Source: Chryseobacterium lactis (GTDB lineage Bacteria > Bacteroidota > Bacteroidia > Flavobacteriales > Weeksellaceae). Taken from it: a DNA stretch of 64,000 nucleotides. Location: contig NZ_CP033924.1 of NCBI RefSeq assembly GCF_003815875.1, forward strand, positions 2,480,001-2,544,000. The letters are read 5' to 3'. The first letter of the stretch is position 1, and every line of letters begins with the position of its first letter. Under the pieces are notes generated by a model, which saw only the letters and a list, made by a program, of their open reading frames with translations, did not search any database and was not told the origin of the DNA. This document shows positions 7,475 to 34,303 of this stretch, one piece after another. The translations under genes were made by a program, and so were the position numbers.

Positions 7475-7539
7475 AGTGTTTATATTTTGATATAAAATTC
7501 ATATACTTAGTTAGAATTTCATACGTAGCTATTTTTTCT

Positions 7540-9889: not shown

Positions 9890-9920
9890 AAGCACCGAAT
9901 CCATTTCGGTGCTTTTCTAA
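9890..9920. terminator. Rho-independent terminator
   Basis: A 10-bp perfect stem, AAGCACCGAA (9890-9899) with TTCGGTGCTT (9905-9914), has a 5-base loop and T-rich 3' flank. It follows the aldo/keto reductase gene. The rest of the 9716-10034 gap shows no gene. Confidence 0.85.
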
Positions 9921-10034
9921 TTTAATTGACTTGAATTTTTGATGTTTTCTTCTATAGTACACATTAAACGCAAGTAATATTATTTGGCTTTCTGCGGTGG
10001 CAAATAATTGGATTATTTGTAAGTTTTTCTCACT

Positions 10035-11318: not shown

Positions 11319-11743
11319 AAATGTTGTTTTTTAATAAGATGTTCCGCTTCACGATTTTTGCTCAGGATTAGAACTTCCCTACAAATTTTTGCCAGTTCTA
11401 TGGTTAGTCCTTCAAGTTTTCCTAAATAAAAGACTGTTTTTTTATCCCCAAAGTTTGTGTGCAGGATCTTCACTACTTGATTATAATTTACACCAATTGC
11501 CCGGAACTGAGCGAAAAACTGCGTTAATTTTGTGCAGTAATCCATAGCCCCTTTATCTATAATCACCGAATTTATCTTCCTTTCAAACAATAGTGATACA
11601 ATAAATTTAGCTTTATTGTCTAGTCCTGATTGATCCAACAATGATAAAAACCTTGCGTTTTCAGTATCCGTGAGGCGAAAAACATAGCGATGGGTTGCCT
11701 TGTCGATTTTGGGTTTTCGACCACCTTTCCGATTTGCTGTCAT
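11315..11743 (-). CDS. mobA: Relaxosome accessory protein MobA
   Basis: 142 residues, with a basic N-terminus (RKGGRKPK), then a YVFRLTDTENARFLSLL segment that resembles a ribbon-helix-helix DNA-binding domain, and a C-terminal helical part. Such proteins bind oriT and assist the relaxase. It is the first gene of the mobA-mobB pair and starts just beside the palindromic candidate oriT. The name follows the CTnDOT scheme; in other schemes this family is called MobC. Confidence 0.85.
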   Translation of the reverse strand: MTANRKGGRKPKIDKATHRYVFRLTDTENARFLSLLDQSGLDNKAKFIVSLLFERKINSVIIDKGAMDYCTKLTQFFAQFRAIGVNYNQVVKILHTNFGDKKTVFYLGKLEGLTIELAKICREVLILSKNREAEHLIKKQHL

Positions 11744-11888
11744 ATCTTTTTTTCAAAACCTAATGGAAAGCGATGAACATTCAAGCTTACGAGCCATTAA
11801 AAACCTATTTTTTCCTACTGATTCACACAAGATACCAACGACATCATAAAAGGTAAATCCGACTTCGGAGGATTACCATGCCCTCGGC

Positions 11889-11948
11889 AGAGCAAGTAGT
11901 TTTGGGGCACAAAACGAGTTTTGAGGCACTCAAAACACAACTTGCTCT
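11889..11948. other. Candidate oriT: three-way-junction palindrome
   Basis: A 9-bp outer stem, AGAGCAAGT (11889-11897) with ACTTGCTCT (11940-11948), encloses two hairpins: GTTTTG/CAAAAC (11899-11904 and 11910-11915) and GTTTTGA/TCAAAAC (11918-11924 and 11930-11936). Both loops contain the string GGCA. It lies immediately upstream of mobA, between mobA and divergent traA, where oriT is found in related elements. An unsupported minus-strand reading frame of 97 codons spans it. The oriT role is inferred. Confidence 0.5.
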
Positions 11949-12134
11949 CTTCTTGGGAAGAGATATGAGAAAGAATACTATAAAGTAAAAATTCCGAATA
12001 ACATTCGGAATCAATAGGTAAAAAGAGGAAAGATTGTAAAGCTTGTGCTTTACAGCCTATACACTTGCCTTCTTTTGCATATAGCATTTGGGTAAGAACT
12101 ATGGTCAATTTACCCTTTTACAAAGGAAGTAATT

Positions 12135-12222
12135 GTAAAAGCATAAAAGTATTAGGTTTTAAAACTGTAAAACTATAAAAGCATAAAACTATAAAAGCGT
12201 AAAAGCATAAAACTGGTAAAAT
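12135..12222. repeat. Iteron-like AT-rich direct repeats
   Basis: At least five imperfect copies of (G/A)TAAAAGC(A/G)TAAAAC-type units follow one another between the oriT candidate and traA. The array could bind the ParA-like TraA or a partner, or serve as a partition or replication site. Nothing else in the 12109-12429 gap is gene-like. Confidence 0.55.
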
Positions 12223-12429
12223 ATGAGGTCATTAATAGAGGAACTTTCTTTACCAGCCTACTATATTTTAAGAAGGACATATAATGTACAAGTAAGATAT
12301 GAGCCTTTATGAAAGGTCTTTTTTAAACCAGTAATACTGACTATACACATATTTTACGATGCATTTGTAAACTTAGGTATTTGCTCTTTGATACAACTTT
12401 AAAATTAAGAAGCTATAAAATAATATAAT

Positions 12430-13197
12430 ATGGAAAAAAAGAAAGAAGCCTTAAAGGTAAGCATTTATGCGCAAAAGGGCGGAGTTGGTAAATCGACAAT
12501 GACGATTCTTCTTGCGAGCGTTTTGCATTATCGTCTTGGATATAATATCGTGGTACTGGATTGCGATTTTCCGCAGCACAGCCTTCTCGGTATGCGCGAA
12601 AGAGATAAGCGTACCATTATGGAAAGTGATTTTCATAAGCGGTTGGCCGTAAAACAATTCCATACGATCAATAAGAAAGCCTATCCGATCATTAAGTGTA
12701 AGGCGGAGAACGCACTTGAAAAAGCCTTTGACTACTGTGAAAGCAGCTCCGTTCAGCCGGATATTATTTTTTTCGATCTCCCTGGAACTGCCAATACGCA
12801 GGGCGTTATCGGTGCTTTAAAGGGCATGAACTACATTTTTTCGCCAATTACCGCAGACCGACTTGTCGTTGAGAGTACATTGGCATTCAGTGAGGTTTTC
12901 CTGAAACTTCCCGCACAGAACAAAAATGCACTTGAGCAATCACTGTTCCTATTCTGGAATCTGGTTGATGGTAGGGAAAAGACAAATCTTTATAATTCTT
13001 ATCAAACTGTAATAGAGGGATTATCACTGAAGAGTATGGCAACAAGGATCATGGACAGTAAGCGGTTTCGGAAAGAAATGGACGACACAGGGAGCTATGT
13101 TTTCAAGTCCACGCTTCTACCTGCCGACTTACAGATTTTGAAAGCTACGCGCGTAGATGAATTTGTTAAAGAATTTTTAAAAATAATTCATATCTGA
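12430..13197 (+). CDS. traA: ParA-family ATPase TraA
   Basis: 255 residues. The deviant Walker A motif KGGVGKST is at about 16-23, with VVLDCDFPQ near 40 and a FFDLPGT Walker B region near 117, as in ParA/MinD ATPases. It is the first gene of the transfer operon in CTnDOT-type elements and may position or maintain the element DNA. It is followed after one base by a DUF3408 gene. The iteron-like array upstream is a plausible binding site for it or a partner. Length is typical. Confidence 0.9.
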   Translation: MEKKKEALKVSIYAQKGGVGKSTMTILLASVLHYRLGYNIVVLDCDFPQHSLLGMRERDKRTIMESDFHKRLAVKQFHTINKKAYPIIKCKAENALEKAFDYCESSSVQPDIIFFDLPGTANTQGVIGALKGMNYIFSPITADRLVVESTLAFSEVFLKLPAQNKNALEQSLFLFWNLVDGREKTNLYNSYQTVIEGLSLKSMATRIMDSKRFRKEMDDTGSYVFKSTLLPADLQILKATRVDEFVKEFLKIIHI

Positions 13198-13198
13198 G

Positions 13199-13606
13199 AT
13201 GGCAATAAAGAAAGATCGTAAAGAATTTCAGAAACCCATCATAGATGAGGAGTACCTGATGAATATTATGAGTGGCGATGAGCCTTTCCCCGAGGCAAAT
13301 CCGGAGGAAAGCACCGATAAAGAGTCAATTCCCACGCCTAAAGTTGAGAAGTCCAGACCAAGATCCGTTAAAAAAATGGATTACGAAGAATTGTTTCTTG
13401 TCAACCGTTTTCCGACCGGGAGGAGTGGGAAGGTTGTTTATATCCGATCGGAATATCACGAACGGCTTCTGCGCATAGTGCAGTTGACACGTGAGGACAA
13501 AATAACGCTGTATTCTTACATAGACAATATACTGGAAAATCATTTTCGAGAATATGGTGATGAGATTACCGATTATTTCAATAAAAAATTTAAACCCATT
13601 TTATAA
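13199..13606 (+). CDS. traB: Conjugal transfer protein, DUF3408 family (TraB-like)
   Basis: 135 residues. The first 55 are charged and probably disordered; the rest (YEELFLVNRFP through YIDNILENHF) is the DUF3408 pattern seen directly after traA in Bacteroidota conjugative elements. No membrane segment. It probably works with TraA in DNA handling, but its biochemical role is unknown. The next gene is a second, shorter DUF3408 protein sharing the same YESLF and LLDNILRHHF motifs. Confidence 0.8.
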   Translation: MAIKKDRKEFQKPIIDEEYLMNIMSGDEPFPEANPEESTDKESIPTPKVEKSRPRSVKKMDYEELFLVNRFPTGRSGKVVYIRSEYHERLLRIVQLTREDKITLYSYIDNILENHFREYGDEITDYFNKKFKPIL

Positions 13607-13607
13607 G

Positions 13608-13904
13608 ATGAAAAAGCAAAATAGGAAGGTTGAAGTTACTGTTAAAGTTCATCAGCAGGTAACTTATGAAAATGTGAGTTATGAATCGCTTTTCCTCTCA
13701 GATACTTTGATGGAAAAACGTGGCGATAAGAGCATCTATGTCAGTGGAGAGCATCATACCAGATTATCCAGAATCGCCAGTGTGATCGGTGAGGATAAAA
13801 TCCCGTTATATGCGCTATTGGATAATATATTAAGACATCATTTTGCGCTTTTTGAAGAAATGCTCGTCAGGGAGTTCAAGGACAAATCAAAGCCACTTTT
13901 TTAA
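13608..13904 (+). CDS. traC: Second DUF3408 conjugal transfer protein (TraC-like)
   Basis: 98 residues from ATG 13608, which lies just after the stop of the preceding gene; an in-frame ATG at 13554 is inside that gene and is less likely. The body (YESLFLSDTL, VSGEHHTRL, ALLDNILRHHF) aligns with the upstream DUF3408 protein, so the pair is a tandem duplication. Function is unknown beyond association with transfer operons. It is followed after four bases by traD. Confidence 0.75.
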   Translation: MKKQNRKVEVTVKVHQQVTYENVSYESLFLSDTLMEKRGDKSIYVSGEHHTRLSRIASVIGEDKIPLYALLDNILRHHFALFEEMLVREFKDKSKPLF

Positions 13905-13908
13905 GATC

Positions 13909-14523
13909 ATGGAAACTTTAATACAGACCGTAATATTGTTCTGCCTAATTGTCGTGATTATACTATTGCTGGTCGATAAGGTTAGGTTCATAAAACCACA
14001 GCGGAAAATATTTCGAAAGGTTGAGCAGATAGCCGAACCGGATGTCATAGGGAAGGTCACAATTCCTGAAAAGGAAAAAACACCCGTGTGGCTTGCCAAT
14101 AGGAAAAAGTTAATCGAACAAATGTTGACAAATAAGACGGATCAAGGCAACGAAGATCCAACCAGAAATGACAGGGAAAAAGAAGATGCCTCCAGTTTTA
14201 GTAATGAGGAATTTGACGAAACCGATAATATTCCAGTGGATGATGACCGATTTGGGCAGGCAGTTTCTTTAAATGAACTTTCAAAAGTTGGGGACCTGTT
14301 GAAGCAGGACAATCTGGATGCAGCGCAGGAAAAAGAAACAAGTTACATCCTCCAAAAAATGGAGGGAACGGAGTTTCTTGCAATGATGCAACAGTCCATC
14401 GATGGGGCTTCGCAGAAGATTGCCAGGCTTTTGGATAAGTCGTTATCGGAAAAGCATAATGTCATTCCGAAAGAGAACCAGAATAATGCCCTGGACAATT
14501 TTGATATCGGAGACTTTATCTGA
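13909..14523 (+). CDS. traD: Membrane-anchored conjugal transfer protein TraD-like
   Basis: 204 residues from ATG 13909. One N-terminal membrane segment (about 6-25) is followed by a basic stretch and a long acidic cytoplasmic region. A conserved-looking VSLNELSKVGDLL segment sits mid-protein. Position after the DUF3408 genes matches TraD of CTnDOT-type elements; sequence support for the name is modest. An earlier in-frame ATG (13843) overlaps the upstream gene. Confidence 0.65.
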   Translation: METLIQTVILFCLIVVIILLLVDKVRFIKPQRKIFRKVEQIAEPDVIGKVTIPEKEKTPVWLANRKKLIEQMLTNKTDQGNEDPTRNDREKEDASSFSNEEFDETDNIPVDDDRFGQAVSLNELSKVGDLLKQDNLDAAQEKETSYILQKMEGTEFLAMMQQSIDGASQKIARLLDKSLSEKHNVIPKENQNNALDNFDIGDFI

Positions 14524-14570
14524 TACTGAATTTTTAAGGCACTAATCAGTAACAATAAAAAAAAGGAGCT

Positions 14571-14972
14571 ATGATAGCAAAGGATGATCCCGATTATGTG
14601 ATCGAAGAATACAAAGGCCGGATAATAGCCAGTCATAAAAATAATGTTTCCCAAAAATCAATGGACAACATTATCATCGTTTATGATAAGCTTGATTTTC
14701 CCGATTACGGATTTTACATCGGACTTGATGATTCTAAAAGTGCAGGCTACAGGAAAATGGAACCTGTTAATATGGATGATGCCAGAAGTTACATTGATTG
14801 GTTAGCAGAAGTGACCAATAAAAAAGACCTCCAGCAAGATTCCTCGGTTTCTGTGCCTGTGCCGATTAAAGAAATTGTGGGCAAGATCTTATCTGAGGTC
14901 GGTTTGAGAAGGTTGGAAAATACTGAGGCACAGTCCCCGAGTAAGTCCCGGAAAAAGGGTAGAGGGATCTAA
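14571..14972 (+). CDS. Hypothetical protein of the transfer operon, module B
   Basis: 133 residues, not recognised as a named family. Residues 5-22 (DDPDYVIEEYKGRIIAS) closely resemble a segment in the C-terminal part of the gene that follows (ENDPDFTLKEYRNYIIAS), so the two share a domain. No signal peptide or membrane segment; the last 20 residues are basic. An AAAAAGGAGCT ribosome site lies just upstream of its ATG. It sits between traD and traE, where the element carries three related genes. Confidence 0.7.
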   Translation: MIAKDDPDYVIEEYKGRIIASHKNNVSQKSMDNIIIVYDKLDFPDYGFYIGLDDSKSAGYRKMEPVNMDDARSYIDWLAEVTNKKDLQQDSSVSVPVPIKEIVGKILSEVGLRRLENTEAQSPSKSRKKGRGI

Positions 14973-15000
14973 TTAGATATTGATAAATTATAAAGAAAGT

Positions 15001-16203
15001 ATGGAAGCAAACCTACCTGAAATTGAAATTTGTGATACTATATTTCAATTTGATATTGATAATTTAGTTTTAATTGAAAAAAAAGATCCATATAATCTCC
15101 TGTTTTTCAACGAAATGCTTGACCATCTTACACATTACGAATTTTTTTACAGTAAAATCAATAAAAATACTCCTACGGAAAGACGTTTGGGGCCCGCAGA
15201 TGATATATTTAACGAATCCGAAAAAAGTAAGGAAGAATTTGCTCAGTCAACAGTAAAAGTAAGCGTTCCACGAATTGCTGAGATTGATCCGGAAGGTATG
15301 ATGCGGAAATACGGTTGTAGCCGGGATGACATTAAAAATAAAACTGATTTTGACATTATTGTAAATCAGGATGTTCTCAGACGAAGGGTATCTGGTGAAC
15401 GCGTAAAAATTGATATTGCGGGTATAGTTTATGAAATAGATGCTATTACTAATTCACTTCGGCCACTGAACGGCGATATGGATAGTATCAAATTAACAGA
15501 GTATCGGTATGATTATTTTATTGATGATGAAAGTTGCTATTACTTATACTGCAACATGAATGACGGCCGTATCGTCGATCTGCTTCGAGATCAAACGGTC
15601 GAAAATTCAATAGAGTTTAAAGTTCCGGATCTTACAAACTTAGATCCAATTGCAGTTATCAATAATTTTCATTTCCTTACAGATCTTGAACTATATTATC
15701 AGGATCTTAAAATGTTTCATATTGCCGAACCGTCACAACAGCAGATCAATGGAAATGCTTTGCTAAACAGTGATTTTACAGTTAAAAATCCAGATCTGAA
15801 GACCTTGATTCTGATCTCAGAAAATGATCCTGATTTTACTCTAAAAGAATACCGAAATTATATTATTGCAAGTAGTAATGAAAGTCGCCTTCTTGATAAA
15901 GACCTGACTGTAATCTTTGAAAAAAACAACAAGCCTGAAAATGCACAGGTAATCATCCCTGCTTCTAAACAGTCTACTAACAATATTGAGCAAGGTATAA
16001 ATGAAGCAATGAAGCATATTGATATTCTTGTTGATAATCCTAATATTATATCCAATAGCTCAGTATTGAGTAATGCTCTTTCCATAAATCAATATCTTGA
16101 ACTGTACCATTCGCAAGGTAAATTAGAAGCGAAAAAATTATTGCCGAAAAATGAAAAATCAGCAATTGAGAATCCCCAGAAAGGGACGCGGCCAAAATTT
16201 TGA
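15001..16203 (+). CDS. Hypothetical protein of the transfer operon, modules A and B fused
   Basis: 400 residues from ATG 15001; a TTG seven codons earlier is possible. The first 235 residues match the protein two genes on in several blocks (a DFDIIVNQDVLRRRV segment, an SLRP block and an NLDPIAVINN block), and residues from about 270 match the preceding 133-residue protein. It therefore joins both modules in one chain. Asp/Glu-rich, no membrane segment. Function unknown; probably cytosolic. Confidence 0.7.
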   Translation: MEANLPEIEICDTIFQFDIDNLVLIEKKDPYNLLFFNEMLDHLTHYEFFYSKINKNTPTERRLGPADDIFNESEKSKEEFAQSTVKVSVPRIAEIDPEGMMRKYGCSRDDIKNKTDFDIIVNQDVLRRRVSGERVKIDIAGIVYEIDAITNSLRPLNGDMDSIKLTEYRYDYFIDDESCYYLYCNMNDGRIVDLLRDQTVENSIEFKVPDLTNLDPIAVINNFHFLTDLELYYQDLKMFHIAEPSQQQINGNALLNSDFTVKNPDLKTLILISENDPDFTLKEYRNYIIASSNESRLLDKDLTVIFEKNNKPENAQVIIPASKQSTNNIEQGINEAMKHIDILVDNPNIISNSSVLSNALSINQYLELYHSQGKLEAKKLLPKNEKSAIENPQKGTRPKF

Positions 16204-16339
16204 ATGTAGACATTTTTGATATTAGATAGGAAAACCACGGAAAAATAGTACCTCAAGGTTCTGCAATTCACCAAATATGTAACTCTACGGCACAATTTAG
16301 CTCAGCAATTAAATTAAAAAAAATAATAAAAGCTGAGTT

Positions 16340-17134
16340 ATGGAAAAAGAACTACCGATCTATACAGATCCAGATTACGGAATCGAGTTTATTGTTGATG
16401 TGGAGAAATTCGAATTTCGGGAAAGGGCCAACCCCGAAACCCGTTACACATTAGAAGATATGATCGATCTGGAGGAAGAAGGATACCGCTTTCATCATTT
16501 CGATAAAACGAGTAGACAGAATTTAAGTATAACTCCTCCACAGTTTGTAACGCTTGCCCCTAGGGAGATGGCAGAAAAGTATAATAAGGCTGTTGAGGAA
16601 ATTCTTTTGCTGACCGATTTTGAGCTCATGGTCGATCAGGAGGCACTGACAAGAAGAATTAAACATGGAGAACTTCCAACGGTTGAAATTGGAGGGCACA
16701 TCTTTTATGCAGATGCAAGGATAGATCTTTTAAGGCCTAAAGATGTTCTATCAACAATGGGTATACGTTTTGATGATCTGGAGGATTGGTATGTTGAGGA
16801 TAAAAATGTCTATGCCTTTCCTTACGATCCCAAAAATTTTGAAATAGGAGATCGAGAATGGGATAAAATACTGGACTACCCCATAGATTTAATTTTTGTT
16901 GAAATTCCTTATGCAAGAACCCTTGATCCGGTGGGATGGAACCGAAGAAATGGATGGGAGGAAATGGAAGGTTTAAAAGAAACGGGCCTCAGACTTGACT
17001 TTAAGGCCGAGTTGGTGCCGTGGAATAAATCTGGAATTGATGAAATTATCTCGGAAAATAGACTTAAACAGCCGATCAGGGAAGCAGTTAAAGACAATGA
17101 AAGGAAAGAAAATAAAAAGGGGCGAAAAATGTAG
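16340..17134 (+). CDS. Hypothetical protein of the transfer operon, module A
   Basis: 264 residues, acidic, with a basic tail (ERKENKKGRKM). The blocks DFELMVDQEALTRRI, VEIGGHIFYADARIDLLRP and TLDPVGWNRRNG align with the first half of the preceding 400-residue protein. No signal, membrane segment or catalytic motif is recognised. It is the last gene before a strong terminator, so the operon head (traA to here) can be transcribed separately from traE onward. Confidence 0.75.
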   Translation: MEKELPIYTDPDYGIEFIVDVEKFEFRERANPETRYTLEDMIDLEEEGYRFHHFDKTSRQNLSITPPQFVTLAPREMAEKYNKAVEEILLLTDFELMVDQEALTRRIKHGELPTVEIGGHIFYADARIDLLRPKDVLSTMGIRFDDLEDWYVEDKNVYAFPYDPKNFEIGDREWDKILDYPIDLIFVEIPYARTLDPVGWNRRNGWEEMEGLKETGLRLDFKAELVPWNKSGIDEIISENRLKQPIREAVKDNERKENKKGRKM

Positions 17135-17149
17135 CCCACAGCAGTGCAG

Positions 17150-17180
17150 CCGCCAGACTTGAAAGTCTGGCGGTTTTTTT
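17150..17180 (+). terminator. Strong rho-independent terminator inside the tra region
   Basis: Perfect 10-bp stem CCGCCAGACT (17150-17159) with AGTCTGGCGG (17164-17173), 4-base loop, then seven T. It divides the tra genes into two transcription units. Confidence 0.9.
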
Positions 17181-17325
17181 ATGCCTTTTTCCGAACTCCG
17201 ATTAGGACAATAACGGCAAACTTAGTACGTCTGATACCACCTGCCCCCAAATGCGATCCTAACTGCGACACCTTTGTTTCCAAGCCCGCAAAGGCGGGTA
17301 TTACAAACTTTAAATGTAATGAAAC

Positions 17326-17634
17326 ATGAAAAAATCAAGACAAAAAATTCTGCTGGCGTTGTTGTTTATTTCGCTTATCAGCAACGGGGCTTTTGCGCAG
17401 GGAAATGGTGCTGCAGGTATTCAGGAGGCAACGCAGATGGTTACCAGCTATTTTGATCCGGCCACCAAGCTGATTTATGCTATCGGTGCAGTGGTGGGAC
17501 TGATCGGCGGCGTGAAAGTGTACAACAAATTCAGTTCGGGTGACCCTGACACTTCAAAGACAGCGGCGAGCTGGTTCGGAGCCTGTATATTCCTGATTGT
17601 CGCTGCGACCATTTTGCGATCATTTTTCCTTTAG
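17326..17634 (+). CDS. traE: Conjugal transfer protein TraE (DUF4134), pilin-like
   Basis: 102 residues. A cleavable signal peptide ends at about AFAQ-GN (residue 25), followed by two hydrophobic helices (about 45-65 and 80-100) and a short polar loop. This small two-helix layout and the DUF4134 pattern (YFDPATKLIYAIGAVVGLIGGVKVYNKF) identify TraE, which is compared with VirB2-type pilins; the pilin role is inferred from topology. It is the first gene after the internal terminator; a small hairpin (17284-17298) lies in its leader. Confidence 0.9.
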   Translation: MKKSRQKILLALLFISLISNGAFAQGNGAAGIQEATQMVTSYFDPATKLIYAIGAVVGLIGGVKVYNKFSSGDPDTSKTAASWFGACIFLIVAATILRSFFL

Positions 17635-17660
17635 GCTAACCCTATTAATTTTTTTCAATT

Positions 17661-18500
17661 ATGACAAAAAGTAAGATGGCTACGCCATTGACCTATTATG
17701 GCGGAAAGCAACAGCTGGCCAGGATCATTATTCCGCTTATTCCACCACATTATACCTACGTTGAACCGTTTGTTGGGGGAGGAGCGATATTCTGGTCAAA
17801 ACCGAGATCTGAGGTTGAGGTGATCAACGATTACAACCGTGAGCTGATCAACTTCTATGAGATGGTAAAAAATCAGTTTGTTGAACTGGAAAAAATGATC
17901 CGTATAACGCTTCACAGTAGATCCCTTCATAGCGATGCGCTTGTGATCTATAATAATCCCCATCTCTTTGACAGATTACCACGGGCCTGGGCAGTCTGGG
18001 TTTTATGTAACCAGTCTTTCAGCGCAAAAATCGGCGATTCATGGGGTTACGATGTACAGGAGCAGACCTCATCCAAAAGATTGAGCAATAAGCGTGCGTC
18101 ATTCTGTGAAGATTTTGCAATACGCCTTCAAAATGTTCAGATCGAAAATACGGATGCCATTAGGATCATCAATTCACGCGATCATGAAAAGGCTTTTCAC
18201 TATTGTGATCCGCCTTATTTTAATAGTGACTGCGGTCATTACGATGGGTATAGCAAACATGATTTTGAATCTCTGCTATTGTGTCTATCCCATGCGAAGG
18301 GAAAGTTTCTTTTGAGCAGCTACCCGAGTGATATCCTGAACAAATTCAGCCGCGATCTTGACTGGCATACTGTCAAAATGCAGAAAGAGGTGCTGGTCGA
18401 TAAACATTCGGGAAAAGTAGCCAAGAAAAAGATCGAAGTACTTACCGCCAACTATGACCTGGATATCGTGCAGGGAACGCTAAACTTTAAATCATACTGA
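17661..18500 (+). CDS. Dam-type DNA adenine methylase (D12 class)
   Basis: 279 residues. It has the SAM-binding motif EPFVGGGAIFW at 35-45, a TYYGGKQQLA N-terminal motif (11-20) and the catalytic DPPY at 183-186, in the order of the alpha-class (D12) adenine methylases. No cognate restriction gene is adjacent, so it is an orphan methylase, probably protecting element DNA or altering host marking. It sits between traE and traF, which are usually adjacent, with no promoter of its own apparent. Target sequence cannot be read from the protein. Confidence 0.9.
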   Translation: MTKSKMATPLTYYGGKQQLARIIIPLIPPHYTYVEPFVGGGAIFWSKPRSEVEVINDYNRELINFYEMVKNQFVELEKMIRITLHSRSLHSDALVIYNNPHLFDRLPRAWAVWVLCNQSFSAKIGDSWGYDVQEQTSSKRLSNKRASFCEDFAIRLQNVQIENTDAIRIINSRDHEKAFHYCDPPYFNSDCGHYDGYSKHDFESLLLCLSHAKGKFLLSSYPSDILNKFSRDLDWHTVKMQKEVLVDKHSGKVAKKKIEVLTANYDLDIVQGTLNFKSY

Positions 18501-18501
18501 A

Positions 18502-18849
18502 ATGAGAACCTGGAATATCAATAAGGGTATCGGCTGTACAGTTGAATTTAAAGGTTTGAAAGCGCAGTATCTTTTTGGATTTGCCGGCGGGCTATTACTG
18601 GTACTTATCCTTGTCATGGTACTGTACATGGCGGATGTAAATATGTATGTCTGTCTTTCAGTAGGGTTTATTTCCGCTTCACTGATCATCTGGAAAACTT
18701 TCAGCCTGAACAACAAATACGGTGAACATGGACTGATGAAATTAGGTGCAAAAAGAAAGCATCCACAATATATCATCACCCGTAAACCTGTGCAATCTTA
18801 CCTTAATCACCAAGCTGCGAGAGGTAAGAAAAATCAAAATTTTAACTAA
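18502..18849 (+). CDS. traF: Conjugal transfer protein TraF (DUF4133)
   Basis: 115 residues. The N-terminal WNINKGIGCTVEFKGLKAQYLF block is characteristic of DUF4133/TraF, followed by two membrane segments (about 28-48 and 53-71) and a basic C-terminus. VirB3-like in size, topology and position directly before the VirB4-type TraG. It starts one base after the methylase stop, so it is translationally linked. Confidence 0.9.
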   Translation: MRTWNINKGIGCTVEFKGLKAQYLFGFAGGLLLVLILVMVLYMADVNMYVCLSVGFISASLIIWKTFSLNNKYGEHGLMKLGAKRKHPQYIITRKPVQSYLNHQAARGKKNQNFN

Positions 18850-18855
18850 ATCTTA

Positions 18856-20232
18856 ATGGTTATCATGAGAAATATCTCTAAAACAACTACGTTAGAAAGC
18901 CGTTTTCCCCTCCTTGCAATTGAAAATGATTGCATCATTTCGAAAGAAGGAGACCTTACGGTGTGTTTCCGTCTAAGGCTTCCGGAAATTTTTACGGTAG
19001 GCACGGATGTATACGAATCCATTCATTCCTCATGGAGTAAAGCGATCAAAACTTTGCCGGATTATAGTATCCTGCACAAACAGGACTGGTATCTAAAGGA
19101 AAACTACCAGCCGGATCTTGAAAAAAGTGAACATAGTTTTTTGTCACGTTCTTTCCAGCTTCACTTTAATGAGCGACCGTTTCTGAACCACTATTGCTAT
19201 ATTTTTCTGACGAAAACGACAAAGGCACGGATGCAGTCCCAGAGCAATTTTAGCAGCTTGTGCAAGGGTAATCTTGTGCCCAAAGAAATAAAGGATAAGG
19301 AAGGAATGCGGCATTTTCTGGAATCGGTGAGCCAGTTCCAGCGTATTATCAATGACAGTGGTCATATAACAATGGATCAGCTGGGTGAAGCTGAAATATT
19401 GGGAAGCGAAGGGAAAACCGGAATTCTTGAACAGTATTTTACATTGTCGCGTGAGACCAATCCCGTTCTGCAGGATATGGCTCTGGGAACAGAAGAGCTC
19501 AGGGTTGGGAGCAAGAGGATGGTACTTCATACATTATCCAGTACCGATGATCTTCCCGGTACTGTTTCTGACTGCAATCGCTACGACAGACTTTCAACAG
19601 ATCGCAGTGACTGTATGTTGTCTTTTGCCAGTCCTGTGGGACTGATGCTGCGCTGTGACCACATTTATAACCAGTACCTGTTCATCGATAATAGTTCTGA
19701 AAACCTCAAAAAATTTGAGAAGTCGGCCAGAAATATGCATTCACTGGCACGTTATAGCCGGGCAAACCAGATAAATAAGGAATGGATAGAACGTTATCTG
19801 AACGAGGCCCATTCACACGGTTCACCATCGATCAGGGCCCATTATAATATATTCGCATGGAGTGAAGACCGACAGGAGCTACGCAACCTGAAAAATGATG
19901 TCGGAAGTGCGCTTGCGCTAATGGAATGTAAGCCCCGCCATAATACGGTCGATGCTGCCACCTTGTTCTGGGCGGGAATTCCCGGTAATGCGGGTGATTT
20001 TCCTGCCGAAGAATCCTTTTACACTTTCATTGAACCGGCACTATGTTTTTTTACCCAGGAAACCAACTATCAAGATTCGTTGTCGCCATTTGGGATTAAG
20101 CTTGCGGACAGACTGACTGGGAAACCGGTGCATTTGGATATCAGTGATCTTCCCATGAAAAAGGGGATCATTACGAATAGAAACCGTTTCATTTTAGGGC
20201 CATCTGGGGGTTGGCGGGCTATTCTTAATTGA
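18856..20232 (+). CDS. traG: TraG (VirB4-like ATPase), N-terminal part, interrupted at Walker A
   Basis: 458 codons. The N-terminal VirB4/TraG domain is intact and reads into the start of the P-loop (NRFILGPSGG), then leaves the family sequence within a hairpin insert and stops at TGA 20230-20232. TraG energises assembly of the type IV secretion channel at the inner membrane. Removing the insert restores one chain of about 835 residues with the P-loop GPSGSGKS. As written, the product lacks the ATPase core. Either the interruption is bypassed in translation, or the element cannot transfer by itself. Confidence 0.88.
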   Translation: MVIMRNISKTTTLESRFPLLAIENDCIISKEGDLTVCFRLRLPEIFTVGTDVYESIHSSWSKAIKTLPDYSILHKQDWYLKENYQPDLEKSEHSFLSRSFQLHFNERPFLNHYCYIFLTKTTKARMQSQSNFSSLCKGNLVPKEIKDKEGMRHFLESVSQFQRIINDSGHITMDQLGEAEILGSEGKTGILEQYFTLSRETNPVLQDMALGTEELRVGSKRMVLHTLSSTDDLPGTVSDCNRYDRLSTDRSDCMLSFASPVGLMLRCDHIYNQYLFIDNSSENLKKFEKSARNMHSLARYSRANQINKEWIERYLNEAHSHGSPSIRAHYNIFAWSEDRQELRNLKNDVGSALALMECKPRHNTVDAATLFWAGIPGNAGDFPAEESFYTFIEPALCFFTQETNYQDSLSPFGIKLADRLTGKPVHLDISDLPMKKGIITNRNRFILGPSGGWRAILN

Positions 20233-20258
20233 GTAGCCCGCCAGCCCACCAAAAAAAT
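20209..20258 (+). other. 50-nt hairpin insert in the traG Walker A codons
   Basis: Exactly 50 bases separate glycine codon GGG (20206-20208) from glycine codon GGA (20259-20261). The sequence 20208-20221 pairs with 20234-20247 (14 bp, one G-U), extendable by three pairs to a TTAATT loop. The zero-frame stop TGA lies at the top of the hairpin. TGG flanks both sides, as would a 3-bp target duplication. A bypass element, mobile palindrome or mutation are all possible. Confidence 0.8.
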
Positions 20259-21440
20259 GGAAGTGGAAAATCATTCTTCACCAATCATATGGTGAGACAA
20301 TATTATGAACAGGGAACTCATGTGCTTTTAGTAGATACGGGTAATTCTTATCAGGGGCTTTGCGAACTCATCAAAGGGAAGACAAAAGGAAAAGACGGTG
20401 TTTATTTCACCTACACCGAGGACAACCCCATCTCATTCAATCCTTTCTTTACCGAAGATAATGTCTTTGATATCGAGAAAAGAGAAAGCATTAAGACCTT
20501 GATTTTGACCCTATGGAAGAGGGACGACGAGGCTCCCCGACGTAGCGAGGAAGTCGCTTTGTCCAATGCAGTAGCCGGATACATCGAACGGATTAAAAAT
20601 AGCAATGAAATACCCTGCTTCAATGGATTCTATGAATACGTGAAAGGGGATTATAAGAAGGTACTGCAGGACAAAGAAGTCCGTGAAAAAGACTTTGACC
20701 TCGCCAATTTCTTAAATGTTCTGGAACCGTATTATAAAGGCGGTGAGTATGACTACTTACTAAACTCAGAAAAAGAGCTTGATTTGCTTAATAAGCGATT
20801 TATTGTCTTTGAAATTGATGCGATCAAGGATCACAAAATTCTTTTTCCCGTGGTTACAATAATCATCATGGAGGTCTTTATCAACAAGATGCGGAGATTG
20901 AAAGGTATCCGAAAGATGATATTGATTGAGGAAGCGTGGAAGGCAATTGCTAAAGAAGGAATGGCCGAATATATACGCTATTTATTCAAAACCGTCAGGA
21001 AATTCTTTGGGGAAGCAAATGTGGTAACACAGGAGATTGATGATATAATACAATCTCCCATTGTCAAGGAAACAATCATTAACAACAGTGACTGCAAGAT
21101 CCTGCTGGACCAACGAAAATATGCCAACAAATTTGACGACATCCAAAAGATGCTTGGTCTCACCGAAAGGGAAAAATCGCAGATCCTTTCGATTAATCAG
21201 GACAATGATCCTAATCGTAAGTACAAGGAAGTTTGGATAGGGCTTGGAGGCACTCATAGTGCAGTGTATGCTACAGAAGTGAGCGAACAGGAGTATTTGG
21301 CCTATACAACAGAGGAATCGGAGAAAATGCAAGTGATGGATCTAGCCCATGAAATGGGCGGGGATGTTGAAGCCGCCATAAAAAAAATATCACTGAAAAA
21401 GATCAAAGGCTTATCACCTGGCGATCATCCCAATAATTAA
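20229..21440 (+). CDS. traG: TraG (VirB4-like ATPase), C-terminal ATPase part
   Basis: The frame is open from a TTG at 20229 whose last bases overlap the TGA of the upstream frame (TTGA). True TraG sequence begins at NGSGKSFFTNHM (from 20256), giving the second half of the P-loop, followed by VLLVDTGNSYQGL, a Walker B-like KMILIEEAWKA and a C-terminal VVTQEIDDIIQSP block typical of TraG. If no bypass occurs, reinitiation at TTG could make a separate ATPase domain with KNGSGKS as its P-loop. Followed by traI after 22 bases. Confidence 0.85.
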   Translation: MSSPPAHQKNGSGKSFFTNHMVRQYYEQGTHVLLVDTGNSYQGLCELIKGKTKGKDGVYFTYTEDNPISFNPFFTEDNVFDIEKRESIKTLILTLWKRDDEAPRRSEEVALSNAVAGYIERIKNSNEIPCFNGFYEYVKGDYKKVLQDKEVREKDFDLANFLNVLEPYYKGGEYDYLLNSEKELDLLNKRFIVFEIDAIKDHKILFPVVTIIIMEVFINKMRRLKGIRKMILIEEAWKAIAKEGMAEYIRYLFKTVRKFFGEANVVTQEIDDIIQSPIVKETIINNSDCKILLDQRKYANKFDDIQKMLGLTEREKSQILSINQDNDPNRKYKEVWIGLGGTHSAVYATEVSEQEYLAYTTEESEKMQVMDLAHEMGGDVEAAIKKISLKKIKGLSPGDHPNN

Positions 21441-21462
21441 ACAATCTTAAAAATTTAGAAAA

Positions 21463-22095
21463 ATGAAAAATTTATTAATGACCGTGTTTATGGCATTGTC
21501 ACTAGCCATCACACAAAAAGCAAATGCGCAATGGGTAGTTACCGATCCGGCAAATCTCATCTCAGGTGTTCTGAACAGCGCCAACGAAATTGTACAGACC
21601 TCAAACACTGTAAGTAATGTGGTAAAGAATTTTAACGAAGTCAAAAAAGTGTATGAGCAGGGCAAAGAATATTATGACAAACTAAAGGCTGTCAACAATC
21701 TGGTGAAAGATGCGAGAAAAGTGCAACAGACCGTTCTTTTGGTCGGGGATGTTAGTAATCTCTATGTCAATAATTTCTCCCGTATGCTAAACGACAAAAA
21801 CTTCTCTGCAGCGGAACTGGTAGCCATTGGAAATGGGTATTCATCGCTGCTGAATGAGAGTACAGAACTACTCAAGGAATTGAAGCAGATCGTAAGTTCC
21901 AGCAGCCTTTCACTGAATGATAAGGAGCGTATGGAGATTATAGACCGTGTCTACAAGGAGGTAAAGGAGTATCATAGCCTGGTAAGATATTTTACGAACA
22001 AAAATATCTCTGTAAGTATCCTGCGTGCAAAAAAGCAAAATGACACCAAGCGTGTCATGGACTTATATGGTACAGCTAATCAAAAATATTGGTAA
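21463..22095 (+). CDS. traI: Conjugal transfer protein TraI (DUF4141)
   Basis: 210 residues with a signal peptide ending at about ANAQ-WV (residue 23), then long amphipathic helices with heptad-like leucines. DUF4141 proteins occupy this place in CTnDOT-type operons; the secreted helical architecture resembles VirB5, a minor pilus component, by inference. Note that this TraI is unrelated to the F-plasmid relaxase of the same name. Confidence 0.88.
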   Translation: MKNLLMTVFMALSLAITQKANAQWVVTDPANLISGVLNSANEIVQTSNTVSNVVKNFNEVKKVYEQGKEYYDKLKAVNNLVKDARKVQQTVLLVGDVSNLYVNNFSRMLNDKNFSAAELVAIGNGYSSLLNESTELLKELKQIVSSSSLSLNDKERMEIIDRVYKEVKEYHSLVRYFTNKNISVSILRAKKQNDTKRVMDLYGTANQKYW

Positions 22096-22110
22096 TAAAT
22101 TCTCACGGTT

Positions 22111-23136
22111 ATGGAATTTAACAATTTACATGAGATCCTACGGGGCCTCTATGATGAAATGATCCCCATGTCGGAAACGATGGCGGTTGTGGCAAAAGGA
22201 GTTGCGGGTCTGGGGGCTCTCTTCTATGTGGCGTTAAAGGTCTGGCAGGCATTGAGCCGGGCGGAACCTATTGACGTTTTTCCCTTACTGAGACCTTTTG
22301 CAATAGGCATCTGTATAATGTTTTTCCCGACGATAGTATTGGGGACAATTAACGGTGTACTTAGCCCAATTGTTAAGGGTACACACTCGATGTTGGAAGG
22401 GCAGGTTCTGGATCTAAACACTTTGCAGCAGCAAAAAGATGTACTGGAAAAAGAAGCGATGTTGCGGAATCCCGCAACGGCCTACCTAGTCTCCGATGAG
22501 GAGTTCGACAAAAAGCTTGATGATCTGGGATGGTCATTTGAAGACATTGCAACGATGATGAATATGTACAGGGACCAGGCGGTTTATAATATAAAGCAGG
22601 AAATCAAGCAGCAGTTGCGCGAATTACTGGAGCTTTTATTTCAGGCGGCGGCACTTGTTGTGGATACGATCCGTACATTTTTTTTAATTGTTCTATCAAT
22701 CCTCGGGCCCATTGCTTTTGCTATTTCTGTGTGGGATGGTTTTCAGAGTACGCTCAACCAGTGGCTTACACGGTATATAAGTGTATATCTCTGGCTTCCG
22801 GTTGCTGATCTTTTCAGCGCAATGCTGGCGAAAATAAATGCCATGAGCGTCCAGCGGGATATAGAACTGTTAAGTGATCCCTCATTTGTGCCCGATCCCG
22901 AGAATAGTGTTTACCTGATTTTTATGATCATAGGAATTGTAGGATACTTTACCATACCTACTGTTACAAGCTGGATCATTCAGGCTGGAGGTGCAGGAAA
23001 CTTTACACGCAATGTCAGTCAGGCTGCGATGCGCACAGGAAATGTTGGCGCTGCCGCTGCCGGAGCTGCAGTGGGGAATATTGGGGGTGAACTGTTGGAT
23101 AATAAGAGCAATGGACAGGGACAAAAAAGCAATTGA
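22111..23136 (+). CDS. traJ: Conjugal transfer protein TraJ (VirB6-like)
   Basis: 341 residues, polytopic: hydrophobic segments at about 27-45, 60-80, 180-215, 230-250 and 265-295. The LYDEMIPMSETMAVVAKGVAGLGALFYV-type N-terminus is the TraJ signature in Bacteroidota elements. VirB6-type proteins line the inner-membrane channel; the match to that role is by topology and position. A Gly/Ala-rich tail ends in NKSNGQGQKSN. Its stop overlaps an alternative TTG start of traK. Confidence 0.9.
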   Translation: MEFNNLHEILRGLYDEMIPMSETMAVVAKGVAGLGALFYVALKVWQALSRAEPIDVFPLLRPFAIGICIMFFPTIVLGTINGVLSPIVKGTHSMLEGQVLDLNTLQQQKDVLEKEAMLRNPATAYLVSDEEFDKKLDDLGWSFEDIATMMNMYRDQAVYNIKQEIKQQLRELLELLFQAAALVVDTIRTFFLIVLSILGPIAFAISVWDGFQSTLNQWLTRYISVYLWLPVADLFSAMLAKINAMSVQRDIELLSDPSFVPDPENSVYLIFMIIGIVGYFTIPTVTSWIIQAGGAGNFTRNVSQAAMRTGNVGAAAAGAAVGNIGGELLDNKSNGQGQKSN

Positions 23137-23138
23137 TT

Positions 23139-23762
23139 ATGGAATTCAGAACGTTAAGAAATATTGAAAATAGTTTTAAGCAGATCAGGCTATACGCCAT
23201 TGTCTTTGCGATACTGTGTTTAGCGGTAGCAGCTTTTGCGGTGTGGAAATCGTATTCCTTTGCATCGGTACAACGGGAGAAAATATATGTTCTTGATCAG
23301 GGAAAATCGTTGATGCTGGCACTCTCACAGGATGCGAGCATAAACCGTCCCGTTGAGGCACGTGAGCATGTCAGGAGGTTCCATGAGCTTTTTTTTACGC
23401 TGGCACCAGATAAATCTGCGATTGAAAGCAATATGAAACGGGCATTCGACCTGGCGGATAAAAGTGCTTTTGATTATTATCGTGACCTTTCTGAAAAGGG
23501 GTATTATAACAGGATCATATCCGGGAACATTCAGCAAAGAGTTGAAGTGGACAGTGTGGTCTGTGATTTTAATACTTATCCTTATTCTGTCACCACCTAC
23601 GCCAAGCAGTTTATCATCCGGTCCAGTAATCTTACCCGAAGGAGCCTTGTCACATCATGCAATCTGCTCAATAGTGTGCGGTCAGACAGCAATCCACAGG
23701 GCTTCCAGATTTTAAAATTTTCAGTCCTTTCCAATAAGGATGAGGAAGTGATAGAGCGGTAG
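23139..23762 (+). CDS. traK: Conjugal transfer protein TraK (VirB8-like)
   Basis: 207 residues from ATG 23139, three bases after the traJ stop. One N-terminal membrane helix (about 18-38) and a periplasmic domain match the VirB8-type layout; the N-terminus FRTLRNIENSFKQIRLY is typical of TraK. It should bridge the inner-membrane complex and the periplasmic core. Confidence 0.9.
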   Translation: MEFRTLRNIENSFKQIRLYAIVFAILCLAVAAFAVWKSYSFASVQREKIYVLDQGKSLMLALSQDASINRPVEAREHVRRFHELFFTLAPDKSAIESNMKRAFDLADKSAFDYYRDLSEKGYYNRIISGNIQQRVEVDSVVCDFNTYPYSVTTYAKQFIIRSSNLTRRSLVTSCNLLNSVRSDSNPQGFQILKFSVLSNKDEEVIER

Positions 23763-23817
23763 AGAAAATTAGTCCTCTCCATAGAAGGGGGAGGCGTTAT
23801 GGTTCAAAATTTAGAAA

Positions 23818-24099
23818 ATGAAAAATATTAGAACAACAATCGATAATGAGCTTGAGAAGCTCGATCTGAGATGGCGGAATTTACCCGTCCGTAAACAGAT
23901 CAGATATGTACTTTATCTATTCGCATTCTACCTGCTTATGGGCGTAGGCGTACTGGTCAAAGTATTTTATGATCTGGGAAAAGGGGATAAAATCGATATA
24001 AGCCATATCGAAGTACCAGCTGTGATTCATAATGAATCTTCTTTGAAAGATTCTGTTAGAAATCCTAAAACTATACACAATGGAAGAGAAAGAGAATAA
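23818..24099 (+). CDS. traL: Conjugal transfer protein TraL
   Basis: 93 residues: a basic cytoplasmic N-terminus, one membrane helix (about 33-52), and a periplasmic tail. Its small size, single helix and position between traK and traM identify TraL (DUF3989-type). Its last 20 bases overlap the start of traM, a sign of coupled translation. Confidence 0.82.
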   Translation: MKNIRTTIDNELEKLDLRWRNLPVRKQIRYVLYLFAFYLLMGVGVLVKVFYDLGKGDKIDISHIEVPAVIHNESSLKDSVRNPKTIHNGRERE

Positions 24100-25414
24100 G
24101 AGGATCAGTTTAATTGTGGATGAAGATTCTACAGAAAATTCGGAAAGCAGTTCCTCAAAAAATGATAAGCTTAAAAAGCCCATCATCTTTGGCCTGATGG
24201 CCATTGTTTTCATCGCCTGTCTTTACTTGATATTTAAACCTAAAGATGGTGGTGAGGAAAATAAGGATAAAGGGTTAAAAAATGCCGTACCTGAGGCCAC
24301 AGACAAAGGGCTGCAGGCGGATAAACAGAAGGCTTATGAGAAGGAAATGATTGAAGAGAGGGAAGCTGCAAAGCGCAATTCGCTGATGTCATTGTCAGAT
24401 TATTGGAATAGTTCCGATACCTCAGTTAGCGGTGAAGTTCCCGTGGCAAAAGTTAATGGCGGTAACTCAGGAGGATATGCGATGACCGGTACACAGAATA
24501 ATTCCTTGAGCAGTTATCAGAATGCACAGCAAACCCTGGGGTCGTTTTATCGGGATGATGACCGCGAAAAATTGGCGCTTCGCAAACAGGTAGATGAACT
24601 CAAAGATCGGCTTTCAGAAAAGGACGTTCCTCAGACACCTACCTATAAGGACCAGCTGGCATTAATGGAAAAATCGTACGAAATGGCTTCACGCTATCTT
24701 CCTTCAGGAAATACATTACCCACAAACCCTGCGATCAATGTTGGTCAGCTTACCGATTCAACAGCGATAAAAACAACTACTCTAACAAGCAATAAAGGGA
24801 AGATCGAAAGTTTGAAAGGGTCCAAAAGGGGGATTGTAACAGCCTTGTACCGCGAAGAGGATGCAGCGGAGATTTTAAATGGCATCGGAGAGCGTAATAT
24901 AGGCTTTATCACGCCCGGACAAGTTGCCCAAAGTGATATTGTCAGGAATAGTATACGAGCAATGGTGATGGAAACAAAAACATTATCAGGGGACGGGTCG
25001 CTAAAGTTGAGATTATCCGAAAATGCAATGATTGGCGGTTATCATGTTTCCAAAGGAACGGAACTGGTGGCAGATACCAAATTTCAGGGAAATAGGTTGC
25101 AGCTAAAGATCAGCGCAGTTGAAATATCTGGAAATATTGTTCCAGTCGAGATTCTAGTTTATGGCACTGACGGTCAGCTTGGGTTATTTGTCCCACGTTC
25201 AGACGAGATCAATGCCGCGGGAGAAATAGCGGCAAACATGAGCCAGAGTTCCGGGATGAATATTTCTATGTCGCGGTCGGCGGGACAGCAGGTTGCAAGT
25301 GATCTGAGCAGGGGACTGATACAGGGCGTTTCAGGTTTTTTTTCAAAAAAATTAAGAGCTGTCAAGGTAACAGTGAGGTCAGGTCATCAAGTACTGCTGG
25401 TGACCAAAAAATAA
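24080..25414 (+). CDS. traM: Conjugal transfer protein TraM (VirB10-like)
   Basis: 444 residues. A charged cytoplasmic N-terminus, one membrane helix (about 33-50), a long polar linker with a coiled-coil stretch (near 160-185), and a C-terminal beta-rich domain beginning near 295 (AMVMETKTLSGDGSLKLRL) match TraM. VirB10-type proteins span the envelope and couple ATP use to the outer-membrane pore; this role is inferred from architecture. Confidence 0.9.
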   Translation: MEEKENKRISLIVDEDSTENSESSSSKNDKLKKPIIFGLMAIVFIACLYLIFKPKDGGEENKDKGLKNAVPEATDKGLQADKQKAYEKEMIEEREAAKRNSLMSLSDYWNSSDTSVSGEVPVAKVNGGNSGGYAMTGTQNNSLSSYQNAQQTLGSFYRDDDREKLALRKQVDELKDRLSEKDVPQTPTYKDQLALMEKSYEMASRYLPSGNTLPTNPAINVGQLTDSTAIKTTTLTSNKGKIESLKGSKRGIVTALYREEDAAEILNGIGERNIGFITPGQVAQSDIVRNSIRAMVMETKTLSGDGSLKLRLSENAMIGGYHVSKGTELVADTKFQGNRLQLKISAVEISGNIVPVEILVYGTDGQLGLFVPRSDEINAAGEIAANMSQSSGMNISMSRSAGQQVASDLSRGLIQGVSGFFSKKLRAVKVTVRSGHQVLLVTKK

Positions 25415-25438
25415 AGTAATAACAATAATAATCATACT

Positions 25439-26320
25439 ATGATAACAATCAAAAATATACTGATGATCCTGCTTTTTGTGGGACTGTTTATCAAGACTTT
25501 TGGTCAGCAGTCGCTCGAAAAGGGAAGGGTAGAACCTTATAGGCTGGAAGTAACATATAACAAAACCTGCCATATTATTTTTCCTTCAACTATCAGGTAC
25601 ACAGATCTGGGATCGAGTTATCTTATTGCTGAGAAAGCAGAGGATGCACAGAACGTCCTGCGTATAAAGGCAGCAGTTAAGGATTTTGCGGAGGAAACCA
25701 ACTTTACAGTAATTACAGAGGATGGCCAATTTTATAGCTTTAATGTTATTTATAATGCTGATCCATATACGCTGAGCTACGATTTAAAGAAAATGAAAAT
25801 TGATGCTGAGCGTGAGGAAGGGAGAAACGTTCAGTTTGAGGAGCTTGGTTTTAATCCACCATCCTTAACAGAAGTTGCGCTGAAAACTATATATCAGCAG
25901 AATAAAAGGTATATAAGACACATCGCGTCCAGATCCTATGGAATTCAGTCTGTTCTTAAAGGTATCTATGTCCATAACGGTAAGTTTTACTTCCATGTGG
26001 AAGTTAAAAATAGATCAAACGTACCTTTTGTCGTGGACTTTTGTACCTATAAAATCGAGGATAAGCAGATTGCAAAAAGAACGGTTTCTCAGGAAAAGCA
26101 ATTAGCTCCTTTAAGGCAGTATCCTGGTCTGGAAGTAATCTCAGATAATTCAATCGCTGGCAATGTGATACTTCTTGATCAATTTACAATCACTGATGAG
26201 CAGGTGCTAAGGATTGAAATTTTTGAAAGGAATGGAGCAAGGAACCAGGTGCTGGAGATTGAGAATTCGGATCTGGTTGCTGCGAAGCCCGTATCTGAAA
26301 TGAAGATTAAGGTTAATTAA
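25439..26320 (+). CDS. traN: Conjugal transfer protein TraN (DUF4138, VirB9-like)
   Basis: 293 residues with a signal peptide (cleavage near FGQQ, about residue 23). The block LEVTYNKTCHIIFPSTIRYTDLG-like with the following AEDAQNVLRIKA is the DUF4138/TraN signature. The protein should be periplasmic and part of the outer-membrane core complex with TraM and TraO. The single early cysteine pair seen in some families is not obvious here. Confidence 0.9.
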   Translation: MITIKNILMILLFVGLFIKTFGQQSLEKGRVEPYRLEVTYNKTCHIIFPSTIRYTDLGSSYLIAEKAEDAQNVLRIKAAVKDFAEETNFTVITEDGQFYSFNVIYNADPYTLSYDLKKMKIDAEREEGRNVQFEELGFNPPSLTEVALKTIYQQNKRYIRHIASRSYGIQSVLKGIYVHNGKFYFHVEVKNRSNVPFVVDFCTYKIEDKQIAKRTVSQEKQLAPLRQYPGLEVISDNSIAGNVILLDQFTITDEQVLRIEIFERNGARNQVLEIENSDLVAAKPVSEMKIKVN

Positions 26321-34293: not shown

Positions 34294-34303
34294 TTTCTTT
34301 TTT

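Follow-up and report, generated by a model that had tools for sequence, protein, structure and literature searches.

In a 64,000-nucleotide (nt) stretch of the Chryseobacterium lactis genome (contig NZ_CP033924.1, positions 2,480,001 to 2,544,000; denoted the window below, always at its full length), the conjugation ATPase gene traG is split inside its Walker A motif by a short insert that carries a hairpin. The insert is real, recurrent, and under selection: it occupies the identical traG codon in 34 tabulated entries from Bacteroidota, 26 of which are distinct over 300 nt on each side, and it is this recurrence at one codon that goes beyond chance. Judged from sequence, the insert is most likely a mobile, programmed translational bypass element, i.e. 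a segment that ribosomes would skip; a probability of roughly 0.7 is given to this reading. The argument draws on the anatomy of the insert, its conservation, its independence of reading frame, selection on both gene halves, covariation in the stem, the set of transfer RNAs (tRNAs), and polyphyly, all of which are observed; from these we infer take-off, sliding, landing, and the hairpin as the unit that moves. The features of traG are as follows (ORF, open reading frame):

18856..20208, + strand: 5' half of traG (ORF1), 451 codons with take-off counted in (448 if counted from the MRN start at 18865); matches Pfam DUF3875 and P-loop_TraG positions 1-43; the frame stays open as far as the stop at 20230-20232
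20206..20208, + strand: proposed take-off codon GGG, fourth Walker A residue (GPSG/SGKS)
20209..20258, + strand: 50-nt gap, putatively non-coding, made up of the hairpin and an A-rich linker (46-50 nt in relatives)
20208..20247, + strand: take-off hairpin, arms 20208-20224 and 20231-20247; the predicted fold leaves a 6-nt loop
20226..20236, + strand: stops in all three frames in or beside the loop (TAA 20226, TGA 20230 in the zero frame, TAG 20234)
20259..20261, + strand: proposed landing codon GGA; decoding would resume at AGT 20262
20259..21440, + strand: 3' half of traG (ORF2), GSGKS and P-loop ATPase domain, to the stop; Pfam P-loop_TraG, E 8.9e-197

An earlier note, made from the letters of the window, had described GGG (20206-20208), exactly 50 nt (20209-20258), and GGA (20259-20261), with the zero-frame stop TGA (20230-20232) inside the gap, and all of this was confirmed. 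Translation reads ...NRNRFILGPSG before the break and GSGKSFFTNH... after it. Skipping the gap restores an unbroken GPSGSGKS, as the note had proposed; its length of about 835 residues for the joined protein has to be corrected to a predicted 840-843. The hairpin of 14-17 base pairs that it placed at the start of the gap is borne out by arms of 17 nt each, 88% complementary with G-U pairs uncounted, and the 91-nt stretch containing it folds at -44.1 kcal/mol (z -6.18; 0 of 200 shuffles equally good). The break falls within the Pfam profile P-loop_TraG, of which the first half covers positions 1-43 and the second positions 38-410 of 413, and among solved structures VirB4-type ATPases come nearest to the second half (4ag5, E 7.5e-08). 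With up to 3 mismatches allowed, the hairpin occurs once in the source genome (5,618,212 bases in one contig), which harbors at least two further, uninterrupted traG loci.

Recurrence, edge codons and stem pairing

Hosts of the insert comprise Chryseobacterium, Sphingobacterium, Myroides, Flavobacterium, Parapedobacter, Niabella, and other Sphingobacteriaceae- and Chitinophagaceae-like genomes. Some of the 34 entries represent one genome present in two collections, and five loci (L026, L038, L041, L044, L053) identical to listed ones over 1115-2000 nt were omitted from the table. A search with the second half of traG in 148 same-genus genomes gave matches in 104, several of them with a frame of 400-403 residues and the same start point. 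The hairpin pattern, again with up to 3 mismatches, yielded 12 copies in 10 of 173 same-genus genomes, all 12 at the same codon, and none in 147 genomes from other genera of the family. The hairpin core alone, a pattern that contained neither edge codon, was found at 23 loci of the genome-contig collection: 6 are not traG P-loop inserts and 17 are, the latter from Chryseobacterium, Sphingobacterium, Myroides, Flavobacterium, Parapedobacter, Niabella, and a metagenome-assembled genome of Chitinophagaceae. The search for the same hairpin elsewhere that the note had suggested led to confirmed copies that all sit at one traG codon.

A class-level sample contained it in 2 of 395 genomes, both known before (13 other genomes gave unrelated matches), the Sphingobacteriaceae-like family in 7 of 331 genomes with 8 copies (unrelated matches in 5 others), the Chitinophagaceae-like family in 2 of 214 genomes (unrelated matches in 7 others), and another sampled family in 0 of 35. 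A generic P-loop pattern matched 19 of 195 genomes of the Chitinophagaceae-like family, namely the same 2 and 17 whose listed matches by eye contain no such hairpin, two of which show uninterrupted traG-like P-loops, also by eye. When the type of insert found in genome G792 was sought in its genus, 11 of 145 genomes matched, with traG as the matched gene in G792 alone. Plasmid records gave 5 weak matches, with an uninterrupted P-loop in the three examined, and phage records did not match the hairpin pattern. No insert in a gene other than traG was confirmed by these searches, which used this hairpin core only and would let unlike hairpins escape.

In a separate set of viral loci carrying the hairpin core (L057-L074), 18 of 18 are not P-loop inserts; their hairpin (TGGCGGGCTA...TAGCCCGCCA) often lies near a gene start and resembles an intergenic terminator. 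Two records of Phocaeicola massiliensis labeled as plasmids (L091, L093) carry the same short sequence directly before two different traG pieces, joined to traG at about the same point of the gene.

That the insert arose by faulty assembly or sequencing is practically negligible as an explanation. Nothing in the window speaks for it, and the Niabella copy alone resembles a case of long-read error; the 26 distinct copies come from independent genomes, the source genome is a single contig, and the assembly error listed as an alternative in the earlier note is thereby refuted.

The edges of the gap are invariant, with GGG at take-off in 34 of 34 entries and GGA at landing in 34 of 34. Part of these codons was built into the patterns of the Sphingobacteriaceae-like, Chitinophagaceae-like, 35-genome family, and generic P-loop searches, and the landing expression was specific in some comparisons, but its general version, applied to the 17 genome-contig loci, returned GGA in all. 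The Pro and Ser codons preceding GGG vary across entries, and the single Gly codon of 13 uninterrupted traG loci is GGA in 5, GGT in 4, GGC in 3, and GGG in 1. A TGG repeat, read earlier as a possible target duplication, is present in the window; it is not conserved as such, the codons before GGG being TCT, TCC or AGC across the 34 entries.

Gap length varies among the 26 distinct copies (50 nt in 13, 49 in 1, 48 in 2, 47 in 8, and 46 in 2), and the second half is therefore found in all three frames relative to the first. Four sequence classes are distinguished: A with 50 nt (49 in the copy ZHDP1), B with 47 nt (46 in S. psychroaquaticum and Niabella), C, represented by G792 (48 nt), and D, represented by G1052 (48 nt). 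The zero-frame stop lies 21 nt past take-off, or 24 nt in the two 46-nt copies, and all three frames carry a stop in the copies inspected for this, but not in G1052.

It is conceivable, if improbable, that translation terminates at the loop TGA and restarts at the overlapping TTG (TTGA), the two chains forming a split ATPase. A TTG in the landing frame, open into the second half, is present in 21 of the 26 distinct copies, and gaps of 50 and 47 nt differ by 3 nt and preserve that frame. Three further copies (G051a, G906, G1052) offer only CTG, and two, ZHDP1 and G792, have no ATG, GTG, TTG or CTG in the landing frame past the last stop (G792 has ATT). Reinitiation, one of the alternatives in the earlier note, is disfavored by these five copies and could still apply to the window copy. 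The protein chain would be interrupted within the phosphate-binding loop, with residue 4 on one side and residue 5 on the other, the ends would carry foreign residues (7-8 and mostly 9-10), and the fixed third positions of GGG and GGA would be left unaccounted for.

The stem shows paired changes: classes C and D differ in the sequence of the outer stem, and the substitutions in one arm are matched by complementary ones in the other. Over 13 distinct rows, from which the Niabella insert was left out, and 17 pairs, 98.6% of the cells are paired and both sides have changed in 5 pairs; none of 500 shuffles scored as high on the paired-change measure, and the structure was derived from these same sequences, which biases the comparison toward it over slid versions.

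Frame independence and selection on both halves would be explained equally well if an endonuclease and a ligase excised the hairpin from the messenger RNA in the fashion of a tiny intron, and the GG common to both edges would permit seamless joining. Excision of this kind is nevertheless considered improbable too. Rfam gives no family above its cut-off for window positions 20000-20500 (MIR2084 alone appears, with 21.9 bits where 100 are required), eight folded copies differ by eye in the pairing of their flanks and share no bulge-helix-bulge, and RNA removal gives no reason to expect that every entry has GGG as its first edge codon and GGA as its second. Moreover, tiny introns of this kind are not known in bacteria, which was counted against it.

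Three further candidates were rejected. If a -1 frameshift took place at AAT TGA, the size of the shift would have to change with the gap length (50, 49 or 48 nt), and in that frame a TAA comes first. Readthrough of the stop codon would, as a matter of argument, put foreign residues into Walker A. Positions 20008-20031 could pair at long range (83%) with the landing region, but this arm is coding and the pairing was treated as chance; its mean duplex energy is -13.8 in 12 distinct interrupted copies vs -9.6 in 12 uninterrupted ones, a comparison that leaves out Niabella, G792, and G1052 (arm-locating motif absent) as well as Myroides and ZHDP1 (not represented by a separate row).

Selection on both halves and the traG tree

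Both halves of the interrupted gene are under strong purifying selection, with omega (the ratio of nonsynonymous to synonymous substitution rates), computed separately for each half, mostly between 0.02 and 0.06. The 12 copies of class A show 0.027-0.177 for the 5' half and 0.009-0.061 for the 3' half, where 5' values above 0.1 are confined to two near-identical pairs and many pairs between subclades have saturated synonymous sites, with no computable omega. The corresponding ranges for the 8 copies of class B are 0.009-0.053 and 0.019-0.102. Neither half is broken in the available sequence of 23 of the 26 distinct copies, Myroides being judged on 50 codons of its first half.

These data bear on the idea that the insert is an inactivating mobile palindrome and traG is dead wherever it sits, the other copies of traG serving transfer. 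The uninterrupted loci of the source genome would suit this idea, as would the scatter of the insert over the tree and the further damage in three of the 26 distinct copies (a second half of 340 codons in G086 and of 85 codons in F. erciyesense, both halves in Niabella). The low omega of both halves over synonymous divergences (dS) from 0.02 to saturation argues against it, as do the paired changes in the stem and the otherwise intact-looking tra and mob genes, and the idea is regarded as very improbable.

As a side observation, both halves of traG in Niabella defluvii (L037) are broken and the take-off run is one G short, as long-read errors would give.

In trees of each half, classes A and B stand apart, each next to an uninterrupted relative. 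Among 147 first halves, 40 of them interrupted, 12 parsimony changes explain the distribution of the insert; 500 label shuffles averaged 35.3 changes and never required fewer than 29. Three entries with short frames were dropped, one database protein was skipped, and identical peptides were merged. The database proteins in the tree are the best 120 of 4732 matches among 7997 scored candidates from a length-limited search, and uninterrupted full-length TraG is therefore under-represented. G792 and G1052 form a sister pair with a long branch; their first halves are 55% identical to each other and 45% and 40% identical, respectively, to that of the window copy. The insert is scattered over the traG tree and was therefore gained or lost repeatedly at one site. 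Of the mobile palindrome that the earlier note had offered as an alternative to bypassing, the mobility agrees with this polyphyly, and a mobile hairpin that is bypassed would fit both of its options.

Codon identity between classes A and B is highest in the first 15 codons past landing (12-13 of 15); just upstream of take-off it is 6 of 13-14, as elsewhere. When a class-B copy is compared with its uninterrupted sister G035, few codons agree (4-7 of 13-15 per compared segment) over about 45 codons of each flank, and more beyond. This low identity of the flanks fits transfer of the insert together with a short flank, or a functional role of the flank.

Eighteen of the best 120 database proteins end 7 residues past GPSG, with tails of the form [GVA][WLC]R[AV][ITAD][LF]N, and include entries named Chryseobacterium rhizosphaerae and Chitinophaga eiseniae. 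Many database TraG proteins (P0012-P0122) end at recurrent positions and have tails of another kind, for example GAPVKAA, CAPVKAA or VRREVA. The latter tails look like the 5' ends of what are presumably group II introns, of which TraG genes seem to be repeated targets. The recurrent truncated TraG lengths of 471, 644, 675, 696, and 797 residues, which we also take to reflect group II introns, were set aside as a different phenomenon.

Proposed bypassing and comparable systems

Bypassing, already the leading option of the earlier note, is the best-supported reading, in view of the invariant GGG and GGA, gap lengths that use all three frames, halves that most copies keep open, the purifying selection acting on each half, and the paired stem changes. 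In the proposed course of events, the ribosome would translate traG as far as GGG in Walker A, where the hairpin beginning at this codon would stall it and refold behind it. The peptidyl-tRNA-Gly(UCC), held by a U-G wobble, would release GGG, the ribosome would traverse the 46-50-nt gap without decoding, and the peptidyl-tRNA would re-pair with GGA (U-A), reading being restarted at the following codon. The expected outcome is a single full-length TraG with an intact GPSGSGKS; ribosomes that do not hop would decode seven codons (eight in one copy) into the hairpin and then stop.

The tRNA set of the source genome agrees with this scheme. Among 85 tRNA genes called by ARAGORN, those for Gly comprise two with anticodon UCC and one with GCC; none with CCC was called in the stretches of the source genome covered, where 150 of 426 candidates were scored and a miss is possible. 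With UCC and GCC only, one tRNA should read both edges, as the note had assumed for UCC, and reading GGG by wobble but GGA by a full match would favor leaving the first and landing on the second.

Several observations weigh against bypassing. The codon after take-off is GGT, GGG or GTT, and no stop adjoins take-off. No Shine-Dalgarno-like site is seen by eye before landing, where CAAAAAAAT, CCAAACT, CCAAATT or CTCCA precede GGA. The in-frame TTG and CTG codons described above suit reinitiation. The 49-nt gap of ZHDP1 hangs on one base in an A-run, possibly a base-calling error; the genes next to its traG match those of the window in length, exactly or nearly so, which speaks against a poor assembly, and the missing start in G792 is independent of this A-run. 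In the stem, the observed diversity of pair types is equaled by 8 of 500 shuffles, and 3 of 13 rows leave one inner pair unpaired. Classes A and B carry almost one insert sequence, and their invariance therefore counts as few events, while classes C and D are single copies that the tree places as sisters. Three distinct copies are damaged, as detailed above. Finally, the nascent-peptide signal and the 5' and 3' stem-loops of T4 gene 60 have no known counterparts in traG, where no systematic search for such a peptide signal was made; by eye, NRNKF or NRNRF ahead of take-off fails to distinguish interrupted TraG from the uninterrupted form.

In T4 gene 60, ribosomes bypass a 50-nt gap with GGA at both ends, the stop UAG right after take-off, and a take-off hairpin; the gene also has a nascent-peptide signal, stem-loops on the 5' and 3' sides, and, about 6 nt upstream of landing, a Shine-Dalgarno-like site of minor importance (PMC5009743, PMC11194080). 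The traG insert resembles it in a gap of 46-50 nt, Gly edges, a take-off hairpin, stops in the gap, and two ORFs for one predicted protein. It differs in its GGG and GGA edges and in a zero-frame stop that lies 21-24 nt on, in the loop, instead of adjoining take-off; both the altered third base and the missing adjacent stop, noted earlier as departures from T4, were confirmed. Furthermore, the T4 case is one phage gene, whereas traG holds a recurrent insert in a bacterial ATPase gene. As it lacks two features of T4, the traG element is not classed with the gene-60 type. Counterparts of gene 60 were long presumed, and two reports of bypassing turned out to be spurious (PMC5009743).

In mitochondria of the yeast Magnusiomyces capitatus, 81 bypassed blocks (byps) lie at many positions in 12 of 15 protein genes (PMC5009743). 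Like the traG insert, they are short skipped blocks inside protein genes, and their edge codons may differ in a base. Unlike them, the insert occupies one codon in one gene family of bacteria with a conserved hairpin core; the likeness drawn here concerns features. Byps are mobile. The byp-like trait of repeated gain or loss is found in traG, whereas spread over several genes is not found with this hairpin core. Within the Bacteroidota, a translational hop of 29 nt was reported for an adhesin gene of Prevotella loescheii, without follow-up (PMC5009743); unlike traG, it concerns 29 nt and one gene. The best explanation of the sequences is that the traG insert would act like T4 gene 60 and the byps, albeit without a stop next to take-off.

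Elements that we take to be group II introns also seem to interrupt traG of Bacteroidota mobile elements at conserved motifs; these lie at other codons and are large ribozymes.

It seems fairly probable that a family of mobile bypass hairpins has colonized one TraG P-loop codon across Bacteroidota and persists through a hop from the wobble-read GGG to the cognate GGA, whose efficiency may set the amount of the transfer ATPase. If true, this would represent long programmed bypassing in cellular bacterial genes together with its evolutionary record and, once proven, an uncommon natural instance of ribosomes hopping over a long distance in bacteria, by way of an element that passes from gene to gene; no report of such a traG case was found in the open-licence literature. 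Natural variants in stem, gap length, and frame, present in cultivable bacteria, would make the rules of long-range hopping directly testable. The insert further suggests that a hairpin can inhabit those codons of a motor gene that are under the tightest constraint, and that database entries for 'truncated' TraG may in some cases be full-length proteins.

The surrounding conjugative element

The genes around traG belong to a CTnDOT-type conjugation system, and the neighboring tra and mob genes that were tested look intact. Of 62 ORFs of at least 100 residues in the window, 20 were scanned with NCBIfam and 8 more, together with both traG halves, with Pfam; no drug-resistance genes are apparent among the ORFs scanned.

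4301..26320, strand not fixed: CTnDOT-type conjugation genes, family profiles covered from near start to near end
4301..6277: MobC
10035..11318: MobB
11315..11743: MobA
18502..18849: DUF4133
21463..22095: DUF4141
22111..23136: TraJ
24080..25414: TraM
25439..26320: DUF4138

A gene for a D12-class adenine DNA methyltransferase (17661-18500) immediately precedes DUF4133 in the tra region. A cargo block on the minus strand (30431-39070) comprises SusD-like, SusC/RagA, FecR-like, and ECF (extracytoplasmic function) sigma genes, and encodes a protein weakly similar to lasso-peptide isopeptidases and dipeptidyl-peptidase 5. The element also carries a gene for a DNA polymerase III alpha subunit (polc superfamily, 47716-50802), perhaps part of an error-prone cassette.

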